From: Chloroflexi bacterium RBG_19FT_COMBO_55_16
Lineage (GTDB): Bacteria; Chloroflexota; Anaerolineae; Anaerolineales; UBA4823
Assembly: GCA_001795335.1 (NCBI GenBank)
Contig: MGOK01000121.1
Coordinates: 8,527-18,769, forward strand
Direction: 5' to 3'
DNA: 10,243 bases
The translations under genes and the position numbers were made by a program. Positions 2,214-9,997 of the stretch are shown here, in pieces. The notes under the pieces are model-generated. The model was not told the origin of the DNA and did no database searches. It worked only from the letters and a program-made list of their open reading frames with translations. The first letter of the stretch is position 1. Every line of letters starts with the position of its first letter.

Positions 2214-4040
2214 ATGACACTCGGAGGATATGCCGATAATATTGCCAGGATTAACCTGACAGATGGTAAGGTGACTTACGAAGCCATACCAGAAGATTGG
2301 AAGCGGAAGTACATCGGTGGCCGTGGGCTAGGTGTAAAGTATGCCTTTGAGAACGGACCGCTGGTCGATCCACTCTCTCCAGATAATATTCTATGTTTCA
2401 TGAATGGACCGCTAACCGGCACGGAGGTGAACCTTAGTGGCCGAATGGCTATTGTAACGAAGAGTCCACAAACCAATACGATCACTGACAGCCACCATGG
2501 AGGGTGGTCGGCAGCGCGTCTGCGCTGGGCAGGCTTTGATGGCCTGATCTTCAAAGGCAAGGCGCCAAAAGCTGTCTATGCTTTCGTAACAGAAGGGAAG
2601 GTCGAGATCCTGGATGCATCGGAACTGTGGGGCAAAGGCGTGCATGAGACGATCAAGTTCTTCCAGGCGAAATATGGTGAGAAAGACCTGAGTGTGATTG
2701 CTATTGGACAGGCGGGTGAGAAACTAAATCTCTTTGCCAATTGGATGAATGAGCATGACCGCTCCAGTGGGCGCGGAGGCACGGGATGCGTGGGCGGAAG
2801 CAAACAGCTTAAAGCAATTGTGATCAAAGCTGAAAAGAAGATGCCCAAGGCAGTCAACAAAGAGCTTTGGAAAGACGCGCATGCCAAGGCTCTGGAAGAG
2901 TTGAGTGACCCGCGTGTCGTAACCTCGCCGCGTAAAGGTGGATTGTCGGTATTTGGCACGAATGTCTTGATGAACATGGTTAACGTAATTGGCGGGATGC
3001 CTACGAACAACTCACAAACCACCTTTTTCCCAGACCATGAAGCGATTAGTGGCGAGCGGGTGAAAGAAACGATCCTGGTGGATGATCCCACCTGTCATGC
3101 CTGTCCGGTTGCTTGCAAGAAGGAAGTGGAGGTAAAGGACGGCCCATTTGCTGGCCTGCGCATGGAGAGCTTCGAGTATGAGCCGGCCTGGGCGGTGGGC
3201 GCCAATTGCGGCAATGATTATGCTCCCGGAGTGGCCAAGGTCATTGATCAATGCAACGATTACGGCATGGACGCGATCGAAACTGGCAATGTACTCTCAA
3301 TGTACATGGAAGCTACTGAGAAGGGTTATCTCGATGGTGATGATGGGCTGGCATGGGGGGACTATATGGGCATGGTGGCACTGGTCGATAAGATCGGTAT
3401 GCGTCAGGGGATTGGAGACCTCCTGGCTCAGGGTACAGAGAGAGCTGCCAAGCATTTCGGTCATCCTGAGATTGCCATGACGGTGAAGGGTATGGCAATC
3501 CCGGCGTATGACCCGCGTGGAATCAAAGGGATGGGCCTCGGTTATGCAACCAGTAACCGTGGCGCCTGTCACTTAAGAGCTTATACTCCAGCTGCTGAAG
3601 TGATCGGAAATGTGCTTGGTCCATCAACCATCACCGATCCAATAGAATGGAAAGGCAAAGGCAAATTAGTCGTTATTTTCCAGCATGTTCATACCGTCAC
3701 AGACTGTCTGGATGTGTGCAAATTTGCTACTTTTGCCGAATCACTGGATACATTCGCGGCCCAGTTTGCAGCTGTCACTGGCATGGAAGCCGACGCGGCT
3801 TATTTGCTTAAAGTTGGCGAACGCGTCTGGAACCTGGAGCGATATTACAATAACTTGAACGGTTTTCGGGAAGGGAGTGATTATCTTCCTGAGCGCTTCC
3901 TGAGTGAACCAGCCACAGGACCAGGATCTACTGGTCAGGTGTGCGAGCTTGACTTAATGCTGGAAGAATACTATCAGGAGCGGGGTTGGGTCAATGGAGT
4001 TGTCACGGAGAAGAAGCTGGTAGAATTAGAGATTGTTTAG
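2214..4040 (+). CDS. Aldehyde:ferredoxin oxidoreductase family tungstopterin enzyme
   Basis: A 608-residue protein, the normal length for the AOR family, which oxidises aldehydes to acids with a bis-pterin tungsten centre and passes electrons to ferredoxin in the cytoplasm. The N-terminal pterin-binding domain shows GGRGLGVKYAF (36-45) and NLSGRMAIVTKSPQ (73-86). Three [4Fe-4S] ligands are Cys294, Cys297 and Cys301 (CHACPVAC), and the fourth is Cys502 in DCLDVCKF, where family members usually have DxxGLCKF. The other pterin motif, NDYGMD, is at 348-353, and DPRGIKGMGLGYATSNRGAC is at 433-452. AGGAGG at 2203-2208, five bases before the ATG, fixes the start. Exact substrate (aliphatic, aromatic, glyceraldehyde-3-phosphate or other) cannot be assigned. 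Nearby MoaD-like genes fit tungstopterin supply. It ends at a strong shared terminator. Confidence 0.96.
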   Translation: MTLGGYADNIARINLTDGKVTYEAIPEDWKRKYIGGRGLGVKYAFENGPLVDPLSPDNILCFMNGPLTGTEVNLSGRMAIVTKSPQTNTITDSHHGGWSAARLRWAGFDGLIFKGKAPKAVYAFVTEGKVEILDASELWGKGVHETIKFFQAKYGEKDLSVIAIGQAGEKLNLFANWMNEHDRSSGRGGTGCVGGSKQLKAIVIKAEKKMPKAVNKELWKDAHAKALEELSDPRVVTSPRKGGLSVFGTNVLMNMVNVIGGMPTNNSQTTFFPDHEAISGERVKETILVDDPTCHACPVACKKEVEVKDGPFAGLRMESFEYEPAWAVGANCGNDYAPGVAKVIDQCNDYGMDAIETGNVLSMYMEATEKGYLDGDDGLAWGDYMGMVALVDKIGMRQGIGDLLAQGTERAAKHFGHPEIAMTVKGMAIPAYDPRGIKGMGLGYATSNRGACHLRAYTPAAEVIGNVLGPSTITDPIEWKGKGKLVVIFQHVHTVTDCLDVCKFATFAESLDTFAAQFAAVTGMEADAAYLLKVGERVWNLERYYNNLNGFREGSDYLPERFLSEPATGPGSTGQVCELDLMLEEYYQERGWVNGVVTEKKLVELEIV

Positions 4041-4083: not shown

Positions 4084-4362
4084 CTAACCACCGCCTACAG
4101 GTGGAAAAATCGAGATTGTATCGTTTGGCTCCAGGATGGTATCTAATCCCCCATCCAGGATGGAGCTGTCACGTCCATTCACAAAAATGTGAATGTGTCC
4201 GTGAAGATATCCCTGAGAATCGAGCATCTCGGCGCGCAAAGCGGGAATTTGTCTGACAATTTCAGCAATGAGCTGGCGTACTGTGCTACCTGGCAGCAGT
4301 GGAAATTCTACCTGTCGGCTGCCGACTATCTCCCGCAGAGTTGCATAAAAATTCACGACCAT
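4084..4362 (-). CDS. moaD: MoaD/ThiS-family ubiquitin-like sulfur carrier
   Basis: A 92-residue beta-grasp protein. The N-terminal strand MVVNFYATLREIVG, the helix STVRQLIAEIV, the strand HIHIFVNGRD and the end DTISIFPPVGGG match the MoaD family closely. The C-terminal Gly-Gly is the site that is adenylated and thiocarboxylated by a MoeB-type E1 so that sulfur can be inserted into molybdopterin. Next to an AOR gene, its natural role is the dithiolene sulfur of tungstopterin. Archaeal-type MoaD relatives can also act as protein modifiers, and the longer insert at about 45-60 resembles that group, so the symbol is provisional. GGGAGG lies about nine bases before the ATG. It is convergent with the AOR and so has its own promoter. 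No MoaE is in the window. Confidence 0.92.
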   Translation of the reverse strand: MVVNFYATLREIVGSRQVEFPLLPGSTVRQLIAEIVRQIPALRAEMLDSQGYLHGHIHIFVNGRDSSILDGGLDTILEPNDTISIFPPVGGG

Positions 4363-4535: not shown

Positions 4536-4799
4536 ATGATCGATGACCTGCTAACCTGCTTACAAATGCCCAGCGAAGCGCGCCGTATCACCTTTATTAA
4601 CGGGGAGTTGAGCGCAATGCCCGGCTTGCAGCCTGACCTTGCCCACCCCCTCCAAGATGGCGACCGAGTGGCTTTCTTTCACCTGCAGGCGATGTGGCCT
4701 TTTCAATACCGGTTCGGTATCGCGATGGGCGATGAATTGTCCAAGGAGATGGGGGCTAGAAAAGACCAGGGCTTGCGCCACGCCTACGAGAGCGAGTGA
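4536..4799 (+). CDS. Divergent beta-grasp (MoaD/ThiS-like) protein without Gly-Gly tail
   Basis: From ATG 4536 the product is 87 residues. YMIDDLLTCLQMP, ITFINGEL and HPLQDGDRVAFF match the helix, middle strand and final DGDxVxxF strand of MoaD/ThiS proteins. Instead of ending in Gly-Gly it continues with MWPFQYRFGIAMGDELSKEM and a charged tail ending AYESE, so it cannot be a normal sulfur carrier. The first beta strand is missing from this start. The frame stays open upstream to 4425 with plausible sequence (ATLKLLFNEEAD) but no start codon; ATG 4426 in another frame encodes MPTILSYNNHLL, which resembles the missing strand, so the true start may be 4426 with a frameshift near 4460. GAGG at 4521-4524, eleven bases before ATG 4536, is a weak ribosome site. 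Its place beside AOR and MoaD suggests a tungsten-enzyme accessory role, by inference only. Confidence 0.6.
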   Translation: MIDDLLTCLQMPSEARRITFINGELSAMPGLQPDLAHPLQDGDRVAFFHLQAMWPFQYRFGIAMGDELSKEMGARKDQGLRHAYESE

Positions 4800-4824
4800 G
4801 GCGTTCTGGATTGGAGATATATTC

Positions 4825-4849
4825 AATCGGCGCGACGTCGGTTTTTTTT
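4825..4849 (+). terminator. Intrinsic terminator after the second beta-grasp gene
   Basis: AATCGGCG (4825-4832) pairs with CGTCGGTT (4836-4843) around a three-base CGA loop, with two G-U pairs, and runs into eight T residues at 4842-4849. It lies 25 bases after the stop codon. Downstream, 4850-5034 holds no clear gene apart from the promoter at 4999-5028. Confidence 0.65.
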
Positions 4850-4998
4850 GTTGTTTTTGTGGTTTAATATAAGGCTGACCTCAACAAGCACCATTTGTAA
4901 TCCACAAGAATGTAATTTATGGGGGGCCGCTTCTGGGCCACAAGCCGCGCTGGCTGCAACTACAGTTCGACGGAAATCTTACTATCATCAAGCCCTGA

Positions 4999-5028
4999 TT
5001 CACCTGGGCCTTCCGAGCATGCTATAAT
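4999..5028 (+). promoter_or_regulatory. Extended -10 promoter producing a leaderless mRNA
   Basis: TGCTATAAT at 5020-5028 is a perfect extended -10 (TGn plus TATAAT). TTCACC at 4999-5004 is a fair -35 at an 18-base spacing. The ATG of the next gene is at 5035, only six bases after the hexamer, which is where transcription itself should start. No Shine-Dalgarno is present in the gap, so translation is probably leaderless. Confidence 0.75.
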
Positions 5029-5034
5029 CACATT

Positions 5035-5250
5035 ATGGATAAATCATTGGTTAAGGCCTACCGGGACCGGTGGCTGGAGATTAACGAGGTGGAGAAAATC
5101 GAGCGACGAGCGGCCTCGATCGCTCTGCGCTGGCAGCAAACCAACGCGATCTTAGGTCTGGCGATCGGGCTGGGATTACCATTGGAAAGGTCAGACTACC
5201 AGGAAGACCTTGTCCGCCTGCGCTGGGCGAAACTGAAAGGATCTTGGTGA
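5035..5250 (+). CDS. Small helical partner of the nucleotidyltransferase (putative antitoxin)
   Basis: A 71-residue protein that is almost wholly alpha-helical by composition, with alternating charges (VEKIERRAASIALRW) and a hydrophobic patch NAILGLAIGLGLPLE near residues 37-51 that is more likely a buried helix than a membrane span. There is no signal peptide or catalytic motif. The last four bases (GTGA, 5247-5250) overlap the start of the next gene, so the two should be translated together in fixed ratio. Small helical proteins directly ahead of MNT-type nucleotidyltransferases recur in bacterial genomes, usually as an uncharacterised partner. Antitoxin or activity-controlling subunit is inferred from this arrangement. 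The gene is expressed from the leaderless promoter just upstream. Confidence 0.8.
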   Translation: MDKSLVKAYRDRWLEINEVEKIERRAASIALRWQQTNAILGLAIGLGLPLERSDYQEDLVRLRWAKLKGSW

Positions 5251-5831
5251 AAGAACCTCCCGAGAGCGTTACACCTTTGCTCGCTCCTTTGGCTGCTTTA
5301 CAGCGATTGTTGTCTCATTTTGAAGACCGGGGGGTCATTATCGGGGGCGTGGCAGCCAGCCTTTTAGGAAGACCACGCTTAACCGCTGACCTGGATGCAA
5401 TGTTGCTGATTTCTGTGGACGAAGTTCCACTCTTGATCGAGGCTGCACAGGCAGAAGGGCTAGCGCCACGAATAGAAGATGCTGAAGATTTTGCCCGAAA
5501 ACATCGGGTAGTGTTGTTACGCCATACAGAAAGCGGTACGAATATCGATATCTCGCTCGGAATATTACCCTTCGAAGAAGAAATAGTTGTGCGTAGCATA
5601 GTCTTCCGCGTGGCGTCGCTTTCGATCCGCTTACCCACCCCAGAAGACCTGGTCATCCTGAAAGCGGTTGCTCACCGCCCCGTGGATATGATGGACATCC
5701 AGGCGATCATCGAGAGCCACCCCGAGCTGGATCGAGAACGGATTAAGGATTGGGTGGACCAGTTCGCACAGGCACTAGAAATGCCAGAGTTGTGGGATGA
5801 TATTGCAGGATGGTTTCGAACGATGAGATAG
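5247..5831 (+). CDS. Minimal nucleotidyltransferase (AbiEii/MNT-like), putative toxin
   Basis: A 194-residue protein starting at GTG 5247, with AGGA five bases upstream; the in-frame TTG at 5244 is too close to that site. The polymerase-beta type nucleotidyltransferase signature is intact: GG at 33-34 in IIGGVAASLLG, the metal-binding pair D48 and D50 in RLTADLDAML, and a third acidic residue D101 in TNIDISLG. The C-terminal part (TPEDLVILKAVAHRPVDMMD, 131-150) matches the helical segment of AbiEii-type enzymes. Related enzymes transfer NMPs to tRNA or to a partner protein and act as toxins in toxin-antitoxin or phage-defence loci. The donor nucleotide and target here are unknown. It is coupled to the small upstream gene. 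A housekeeping role is possible, but the paired layout favours a toxin-antitoxin module. Confidence 0.88.
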   Translation: MKEPPESVTPLLAPLAALQRLLSHFEDRGVIIGGVAASLLGRPRLTADLDAMLLISVDEVPLLIEAAQAEGLAPRIEDAEDFARKHRVVLLRHTESGTNIDISLGILPFEEEIVVRSIVFRVASLSIRLPTPEDLVILKAVAHRPVDMMDIQAIIESHPELDRERIKDWVDQFAQALEMPELWDDIAGWFRTMR

Positions 5832-5970
5832 AATATCATAACAGGGGGAATATTGAGCATTACTTTTCGGTAAAGTTTGAGATTGCGGTTTAAAATTAAC
5901 GCAAAGTCGGATCGGTGCTAAGACACAACGTCGAACAAAATTATCAGCAAGCTAAATAAAGTAAACCTTC

Positions 5971-6426
5971 ATGAGTGAAATCATCCGTACAGCAAGGGAC
6001 ACAGATTGGGCGAAAATCCTGTCTTTAGCCAACAAAATGCTACCCCTGGCAGAAAAGGAAAACGAGGAATGGTTGCAAAACCGCCAGGGTTTTGACCGGA
6101 TGCGATTTATCCGCCGTCATTATGTCGCCGAAGATAGAACGACCCGGGAATTGGTTGCCTATTGTGCAATCGAAGAGGGTCCAGACAAAGGGGACTACCG
6201 GGTTTTCCTTGTGGTGGTACCTGATATATTTCAGAGGCTTGGAGAACGGATGTACCTGCAGCTCATCCGCGGTTTAAGAGAACTCGGCGCAAAGCTGGCC
6301 TGGGCCCGGGAAGAAATTGGCGATCCAGTCGTAGATTTCCTAAAGGATCATGGCTTTGAAGAAAGCTCCCAATTTACTCTGCCTGACGGGAGAGAGGCAG
6401 TCGTTCTTTCAAAGCAACTATCTTAA
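5971..6426 (+). CDS. GNAT-family N-acetyltransferase-like protein
   Basis: A 151-residue cytoplasmic protein with GNAT-like layout: SEIIRTARDTDWAKILSLAN at the N-terminus (strand 1 and helix 1), the central strand VAYCAIEEG, strand 4 as YRVFLVVVP, the CoA-loop region RLGERMYLQLIRGLRELG, and VVDFLKDHGFEE as the final helix-strand, typical of GNATs. The pyrophosphate-binding Q/RxxGxG/A motif is degenerate (here QRLGER), so acetyl-CoA binding is probable but not certain. The substrate is unknown. There is no clear Shine-Dalgarno ahead of ATG 5971. Its stop codon overlaps the stop of the convergent wall hydrolase by four bases and no terminator separates them. The gap before it (5832-5970) holds nothing recognisable. 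Confidence 0.75.
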   Translation: MSEIIRTARDTDWAKILSLANKMLPLAEKENEEWLQNRQGFDRMRFIRRHYVAEDRTTRELVAYCAIEEGPDKGDYRVFLVVVPDIFQRLGERMYLQLIRGLRELGAKLAWAREEIGDPVVDFLKDHGFEESSQFTLPDGREAVVLSKQLS

Positions 6427-9152: not shown

Positions 9153-9701
9153 ATGGCATTTGAGACAATAAGTTCTGAGACAAGCTACCAGGGCAAGGTA
9201 TTCGACGTGCGCCGCGACCAGATCCGCCTGCCAAACGGCAAGTCGGTCTCCCTCGATATCGTCGAACATCCAGGCGCGGTCACCCTGGTACCCATCGACG
9301 AACAAGGCCAGGTGTGGTTCGTGCGCCAATATCGCTATGCAGCCCAGGTAGAGTTACTGGAACTGCCAGCTGGCTCTCTGGACAAAGGGGAATCCCCGCA
9401 GGCCTGCGCCCTGCGCGAAGTGCGCGAAGAGATCGGCATGGCAGCCGGTCAGCTTCAAAAAGTGGGGGAATTCTTCCTGGCTCCTGGGTATTCCACGGAG
9501 TACATGTACGTTTACCTGGCGACAAACCTGCGGCCAGATCCCCTGGAAGCAGATGCCGACGAGTTTTTAACCGTCGAATCAGTCCCCGCCGATCAGGCAT
9601 ATAAAATGGCTGAATCCGGTCAGATCCAGGATGGCAAAACGTTGGCCGCGCTCTACCTGGCGCGGCCTCGTTTGGTAAAGATGGGGGTTCTTCAAGGCTG
9701 A
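9153..9701 (+). CDS. Nudix hydrolase, ADP-ribose pyrophosphatase type
   Basis: A 182-residue cytoplasmic enzyme. The Nudix box is complete: G74, E80 and R88-E-V-R-E-E-I-G95 (GSLDKGESPQACALREVREE, then IG), with the E92/E93 pair binding Mg2+. ELPAG just before it and P111 about 15 residues after it (FFLAPGYSTEYMYVYLA) are typical of ADP-ribose pyrophosphatases, which split ADP-ribose into AMP and ribose 5-phosphate. Dinucleotide or sugar-nucleotide substrates cannot be excluded. The start at ATG 9153 matches the family N-terminus (SYQGKVFDVRRDQI); an in-frame ATG at 9078 would run through the hairpin and is unlikely. The Shine-Dalgarno is weak (CGAG). Its last ten bases overlap the convergent YgiT-type gene. 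Confidence 0.93.
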   Translation: MAFETISSETSYQGKVFDVRRDQIRLPNGKSVSLDIVEHPGAVTLVPIDEQGQVWFVRQYRYAAQVELLELPAGSLDKGESPQACALREVREEIGMAAGQLQKVGEFFLAPGYSTEYMYVYLATNLRPDPLEADADEFLTVESVPADQAYKMAESGQIQDGKTLAALYLARPRLVKMGVLQG

Positions 9702-9997
9702 GGCTGGTTCCCTCGCGCCGGCCCGCTCTTTCGGCGGATCTTACCAGCCGGGGAACGCCCGGCAGCCGGGTTGAGCAAAGTGTTTAACCAGGTCACCGCC
9801 CGCGGATCAAAATCCCGCCGCCCGCACAGGTCACACACCCAGGCTGGAAAATTGGGCACTGTGACCAGCTCTTCGTTCAACCAGGTGAAGTAAGTAATAT
9901 GCCTCAGACGCATGACGCCCGCGGCACATTCAGGGCACTGCAGTAGTGACTCATTTGGTTCGTTCCCTGGTTCATTCGCCTTGGTGTTTTTATCCAT
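9692..9997 (-). CDS. YgiT-type zinc-finger protein
   Basis: A 101-residue protein with Cys pairs at 21/24 (CPEC) and 55/58 (CDLC) around a beta-rich segment, HITYFTWLNEELVTVPNFPAW. This is the YgiT-type zinc-finger pattern found in the N-terminal half of MqsA antitoxins and in many stand-alone proteins. The DNA-binding HTH half of MqsA is absent; the C-terminus is instead a basic, Pro/Gly/Arg-rich tail (from about 78), which could contact nucleic acid. No toxin gene is adjacent, so an antitoxin role is not supported here. It starts 37 bases after the signal peptidase gene on the same strand and is probably co-transcribed with it. ATG 9997 has no strong Shine-Dalgarno; an ATG at 10010 is out of frame. 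Its end overlaps the Nudix gene by ten bases. Confidence 0.85.
   Translation of the reverse strand: MDKNTKANEPGNEPNESLLQCPECAAGVMRLRHITYFTWLNEELVTVPNFPAWVCDLCGRRDFDPRAVTWLNTLLNPAAGRSPAGKIRRKSGPARGNQPQP

Follow-up and report, generated by a model that had tools for sequence, protein, structure and literature searches.

A two-gene module of Chloroflexota, probably a mobile chromosomal toxin-antitoxin system on the MenAT1 plan with an often leaderless-type antitoxin start

Positions 4999-5831 of a 10,243-base stretch of Chloroflexota DNA (the window) carry two overlapping genes, one encoding a 71-residue helical protein and the other a 194-residue nucleotidyltransferase. We estimate a probability of about two in three that the pair is a mobile chromosomal toxin-antitoxin module built on the plan of MenAT1 of Mycobacterium tuberculosis, with the transferase as toxin and the small protein as antitoxin. 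Comparative evidence, namely conserved pairing of the two genes and one-sided loss of the enzyme, supports the toxin-antitoxin character proposed in a first-pass annotation of the window. As a prediction this reading is well supported comparatively, and the enzyme falls in a class already known. What is new, to the extent that searches can tell, is the family to which the antitoxin belongs, together with the leaderless start that its genes often have next to a toxin led by a Shine-Dalgarno (SD) signal, the natural fusions of the two proteins and the one-sided decay. The sequence elements named in the annotation were all found in the region, which is laid out as follows.

4825-4843, + strand: terminator-like hairpin with T-run, upstream of the module (consensus scan)
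4999-5004, + strand: weak -35-like TTCACC, with an 18-nt spacer to the -10
5020-5028, + strand: extended -10 TGCTATAAT, at the same position in about half of the family
5035-5250, + strand: gene for the small helical protein of 71 residues, candidate antitoxin, predicted leaderless (open reading frame, homologues, helical model)
5237-5241, + strand: SD-like AAGGA for the transferase, within the K-L-K-G codons of the small gene
5247-5831, + strand: MenT1-like nucleotidyltransferase gene of 194 residues, GTG start (Pfam, alignment, fold)

The two open reading frames (ORFs) share a GTGA overlap in which the GTG start of the transferase meets the TGA of the small gene, and AAGGA ends 5 nt before that GTG; the ORF tool places the transferase start one codon earlier, at TTG 5244.

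A scan of genome contigs confirmed 85 stretches, of which 80 loci were kept. The small gene lies just upstream of the transferase in 65 of the 80, including two (L051 and L059) where it was found only at E 0.003-0.006. The 15 loci lacking it comprise one at a contig edge (L062) and 14 with distant transferases, 10 of which carry another ORF of about 70-130 residues directly upstream. When full-length transferases scoring at least 200 bits were de-duplicated, the first profile placed the small gene beside 60 of 62, and in the remaining two (L046, L051) it scores more weakly. Among 396 class genomes drawn evenly, 24 contained core transferases (E <= 1e-40), at 26 places in all, and 46 contained the small gene, at 48 places. 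A small-gene match stood just upstream of every one of the 26 core transferases; thus a survey of gene neighborhoods, which could have found most transferases standing alone, leaves the proposed pairing unrefuted. By script-chosen starts the genes overlap in 57 of 66 pairs, with a -4 overlap in 26, and the distances of the two genes correlate at r 0.84 against a permutation maximum of 0.31. The coupled two-gene module that had been proposed is therefore supported by both overlap and adjacency. Ten genes flanking the module in the window gave three weak paralogue matches and nothing else among the 80 loci. From this, the two genes appear to travel alone. A viral or phage origin found no support: in two scans of viral contigs, none of the 56 and 10 stretches that fitted the pattern was confirmed as a relative, PHROGs returned one match at E 0.18, and PADLOC returned none at E up to 1.

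Decay of the module is lopsided. The transferase is intact at 24 of the 48 places with a small gene and broken beside the gene at two others, by a premature stop in one case and an internal deletion in the other; 13 places keep only a transferase remnant and seven have none detected; the last two are not assessable, one lying at a contig end and the other being itself a remnant. Overall, 22 of the 46 assessable small genes remain open without a working transferase, and none of the 24 intact transferases lacks the small gene, a count to be read with caution, since advanced decay hides a small gene more readily than an enzyme, although an enzyme standing alone would have been noticed. The remnants end at many points and represent about 13 structures, some of which may share a history. 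Internal or terminal deletions of the transferase beside an open small gene are seen at L216, L218, L219, L222 and L226-L232, and the internal deletion at L232 stays in frame.

Two proteins of 263 residues (P0279 and P0280), 81% identical to each other, join the small protein and the transferase in one chain with the active-site motifs present. They were found with a read-through chain as query, among the best 120 of 3,763 matches, and come from different sources whose longest contigs are 120,802 and 2,559 bases. Judged from these chains, natural fusion supports a probable physical association of the small protein with the transferase.

The transferase matches the Pfam families AbiEii, DUF6036 and DUF2204, with AbiEii (PF08843) at 25.8 bits against a cut-off of 22.5. 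No MNT model matches, so the label "MNT-type" given to it earlier is wrong as a family name. The residues singled out in the first-pass annotation are intact along with the GTGA overlap: among 57 sequences, window included, G34, D48, D50 and D101 are identical in all and G33 in 56. T46, D48, K139 and D150 are likewise present in all 57, and the window protein has T46, D48, D50, D101, K139, R144, D147 and D150 intact. Its closest match in both sequence and fold is MenT1, at about 20% identity in the fold match. MenT1 residues T39, D41, D43, K137, R146, D149 and D152, numbered as in PMC10435456 and PMC11375011, align with T46, D48, D50, K139, R144, D147 and D150.

In view of this match, the idea that nothing comparable is known is not supported; MenAT1 had been overlooked. 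In MenAT1, as described, a 68-residue antitoxin encoded upstream controls the MenT1 nucleotidyltransferase, and MenT1 was without detectable toxicity in E. coli (PMC10435456). The Chloroflexota pair resembles Rv0078B-Rv0078A of M. tuberculosis in having a DUF1814-type enzyme of about 195 residues (MenT1 chain 196, here 194), a short helical antitoxin gene directly upstream (MenA1 68 residues, here 71), the MenT1-type fold, and equivalents of the catalytic T39, D41, K137 and D152. It differs in that the small protein is not recognizable as MenA1 and R40 is replaced by A47, as well as in its occurrence in Chloroflexota and in metagenome-assembled genomes (MAGs) labeled as other phyla, its conserved leaderless extended -10, and its natural fusions. 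CMP transfer to tRNA, a heterotrimer and T39 phosphorylation are biochemical traits of MenAT1. The earlier suggestion of a distinct class thus stands in part: the enzyme is MenT1-like and the plan is the same, whereas the small protein is not recognizably MenA1, and for this last reason the pair may be a separate family on the same plan. No description of the pair turned up in the titles and abstract openings of the open-access literature searched.

Two other known groups were considered and rejected. HEPN-MNT (HepT-MNT) systems are also two-gene modules with a protein of nucleotidyltransferase fold, the toxin in them being the HEPN protein and its antitoxin the MNT protein; neither protein here matched the HEPN or MNT (NTP_transf) Pfam families at E up to 1. 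AbiE, MenAT3 and MenAT4 (COG5340-DUF1814, type IV) share the enzyme superfamily and the Pfam AbiEii match. Their antitoxins are described as larger winged helix-turn-helix proteins (PMC11375011), whereas the partner here has 71 residues and no match to such a domain, and MenT3 chains run to 287-290 residues versus 194 for the window transferase. Pfam thus bears out the first-pass view that the small partner is neither HepT-like nor AbiEi-like.

The small protein has 45 protein-database matches at E <= 0.001, its own entry counted, and a median ratio of nonsynonymous to synonymous substitution rates (dN/dS) of 0.095 over the 28 measurable of 40 compared pairs; as judged from these sequence comparisons, it is a real gene. 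Searches of Pfam, NCBIfam and PADLOC at E up to 1 gave it no family match, and among 38 members no family matched more than two (best E 0.031). The predicted structure is all-helical, as had been proposed, with three helices at residues 3-26, 29-46 and 54-70 (mean predicted local distance difference test score 88.9; predicted template modeling score, pTM, 0.48). Its most constant residues are R12, W13, E20, E23, R63, W64 and L67. Foldseek with this model did not list MenA1, an absence that does not exclude likeness.

The start of the small gene carries a distinctive signal. The perfect extended -10 noted earlier is present as TGCTATAAT, separated from ATG 5035 by six bases (5029-5034), and since transcription would start about 7 nt downstream of a -10, the transcript would begin at that ATG. 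By itself a promoter scan of 4600-6000 is not above chance, yielding one promoter-like site versus a shuffle mean of 1.1; the comparative evidence is above chance. When that of the window is counted in, 65 small genes have sufficient sequence upstream, and exact TATAAT precedes 36 of them, compared with 13 of 560 other ORFs of the same loci, two of them with TG (Fisher p 8e-30). This enrichment supports the proposed leaderless-type start. The hexamer ends six bases before the start codon in 27 of the 36 cases, seven in seven cases, and eight and ten in one each; 32 of the 36 have the TG extension. The relatives show no conserved -35, columns -70 to -5 relative to the hexamer holding at most 0.35 bits. 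In 24 of the 80 loci the full TGCTATAATN6ATG is present, in a single copy placed at the small gene. Against a background of 15%, an SD-like motif stands before only one of 35 leaderless-type small genes, whereas 15 of the 30 remaining small genes and 40 of 54 transferase starts have one. The absence of a Shine-Dalgarno noted earlier is borne out for the ATG of the small gene; as a correction, the transferase does have one, the SD-like AAGGA. A promoter exclusive to the module can be rejected, as TGCTATAATN6ATG is found in 131 of 199 class genomes (reversed control, eight) and leads an ORF of at least 60 residues at 20 of 30 fetched places. It looks like a rare, general leaderless promoter in the class, and some of the ORFs it leads (L143-L172) look housekeeping, as judged by eye from their sequences. 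Because the same promoter type serves other class genes, the module stands out for how often it uses this local promoter class, not for being its sole user. Leaderless genes have been reported to average 4.7% in the four of 12 Chloroflexi genomes with a detected signal, of pattern TAtaaT (PMC3160421).

In the mechanism we propose, the small protein would act as antitoxin and be made first, probably from a leaderless mRNA beginning at its own ATG. The toxin would then be translated from the overlapping start by way of the SD-like site inside the antitoxin gene. By analogy with MenT1, we infer that the DUF1814-type enzyme most likely adds nucleotides to RNA, with tRNA 3' ends as the best-guess substrate, and so stops translation. 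Direct binding to the enzyme is probably how the antitoxin closes the active site; MenA1 is described as blocking MenT1 by binding across two protomers (PMC10435456). The antitoxin may also bring T46 to bound nucleotide for self-phosphorylation, in the way that MenA1 induces phosphorylation of MenT1 T39 (PMC11375011). The invariance of T46 makes MenT1-type phosphorylation control possible, though two arginines are not clearly conserved.

Several observations weigh against a toxin-antitoxin module of this kind. Toxicity of the transferase is itself inferred. If losses fell in proportion to gene length, the chance of their always striking the enzyme would be p 0.017 for 13 events and 0.001 for 22, and on this account the asymmetry of loss, though good evidence, falls short of overwhelming. 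A toxin that would need release by antitoxin degradation sits awkwardly with a permanent fusion, and the fusion model (pTM 0.71) has low confidence at residues 51-80, so that its interface is not readable. Conservation of the promoter is partial (36 of 65), with an SD-like motif at half of the remaining starts (15 of 30). Against self-phosphorylation in particular, MenT1 R40 corresponds to A47 here, nearly always alanine in the close family, and the R84 column is not arginine, a result that depends on the alignment since R92 adjoins. In a published simulation R40 sits on the triphosphate in the reactive pose (PMC11375011); the R40/R84 triphosphate contact is a modeled detail, not a formal criterion of the MenAT1 family. 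Finally, two profiles gave no sequence match between the small protein and MenA1 at E up to 10.

That last result also bears on whether the pair might be MenAT1 proper, with the small protein a MenA1 orthologue diverged past recognition and working identically, heterotrimer included. Gene order, the similar sizes (71/194 versus 68/196), a helical antitoxin, the enzyme fold and the core catalytic set are all as expected of such an orthologue, whereas the absence of any MenA1 sequence match, the failure of Foldseek to retrieve MenA1 (in itself not conclusive) and the lack of conservation of R40 make it decidedly improbable in our judgment. A non-toxic two-subunit nucleotidyltransferase, in which the enzyme modifies RNA or a small molecule for an accessory metabolic or resistance function and has the small protein as its activator or specificity subunit, strikes us as an unlikely alternative that deserves attention. 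There would be no reason for an activator subunit to persist once its enzyme is gone, whereas 22 of the 46 assessable small genes stay open with no working transferase, and the match to MenT1 is the closer one, with a margin of about 7 Z units.

We consider it hardly probable that the small protein counteracts something else, such as a related transferase elsewhere in the genome, and that the operon is merely a common arrangement. Orphan small genes are indeed common, further and more distant transferases are present in class genomes (some match at E 1e-10 in 47 of 199, with only 15 places core), and dN/dS between orphans is low in the two pairs measured (0.12 and 0.24), although these values may predate loss of the transferase. 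Against this stand adjacency at 26 of 26 core transferases and overlap in 57 of 66 pairs (script-chosen starts), and both the co-divergence at r 0.84 and the natural fusions indicate that the small protein acts mainly with its cognate enzyme.

If the pair is the MenAT1-like module we favor, the design of a MenT1 enzyme with a tiny helical antitoxin is apparently no mycobacterial oddity. The family occurs in Chloroflexota and in MAGs labeled as several other phyla, labels that may reflect contamination, and the silencing of such an enzyme by a tiny antitoxin could be studied in it with models that are not listed pathogens. It also provides a case of a visibly conserved leaderless-type start on an antitoxin gene. 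In M. tuberculosis, leaderless transcripts are likewise reported to predominate among toxin-antitoxin pairs: of 37 pairs having a primary start site, 32 show them (PMC3898074), and the association may therefore be wider. A more speculative extension, which we hold to be doubtful, is a family, possibly present in more than one phylum, whose antitoxin is tied by design to leaderless translation and in which the toxin is SD-led from the last codons of the antitoxin, a new antitoxin family induces self-phosphorylation of T46, and the fused form is an intramolecular switch that dispenses with a degradation step. Were this true, the balance of toxin and antitoxin would be read off the state of the translation machinery: conditions favoring leaderless initiation would silence the toxin and SD-led recovery would release it, or the reverse.

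The modules of the more distant transferases (L067, L068, L070, L073, L075-L080, L105, L108, L113 and L118), SGLVEQQR-type and others, also feature small upstream ORFs with little sequence similarity to that of the window. None of eight such ORFs scanned reached a Pfam cut-off. One family of them has an SGLVEQQR C-terminal motif and aligns over its full length with the small-protein family of the window by hhalign (probability 40%, E 2.9e-4, 66 columns), which hints at a wider superfamily of tiny partners and is suggestive only.

The window looks like a piece of an Anaerolineae/Chloroflexota-type chromosome, as judged from its protein relatives, and holds no structured RNA at Rfam gathering scores. 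The consensus scan found two terminator-like hairpins versus 1.3 expected in shuffles; that at 4825-4843 would separate the module from the upstream ORF. Farther upstream lie an aldehyde ferredoxin oxidoreductase gene (2214-4040, + strand; PF01314/PF02730), a neighboring ThiS-family gene on the opposite strand (4084-4362, - strand) and another ORF that matches ThiS marginally (4536-4799, + strand; E 0.14). Downstream of the module, a GNAT-like ORF (5971-6426, + strand) scores 14.5 bits, under the Pfam cut-off of 20.7, and has no match in the other 80 loci. A 100-residue protein with two CxxC pairs (9692-9997, - strand) has no Pfam match at E 0.01 and resembles YgiT-type zinc-finger proteins.
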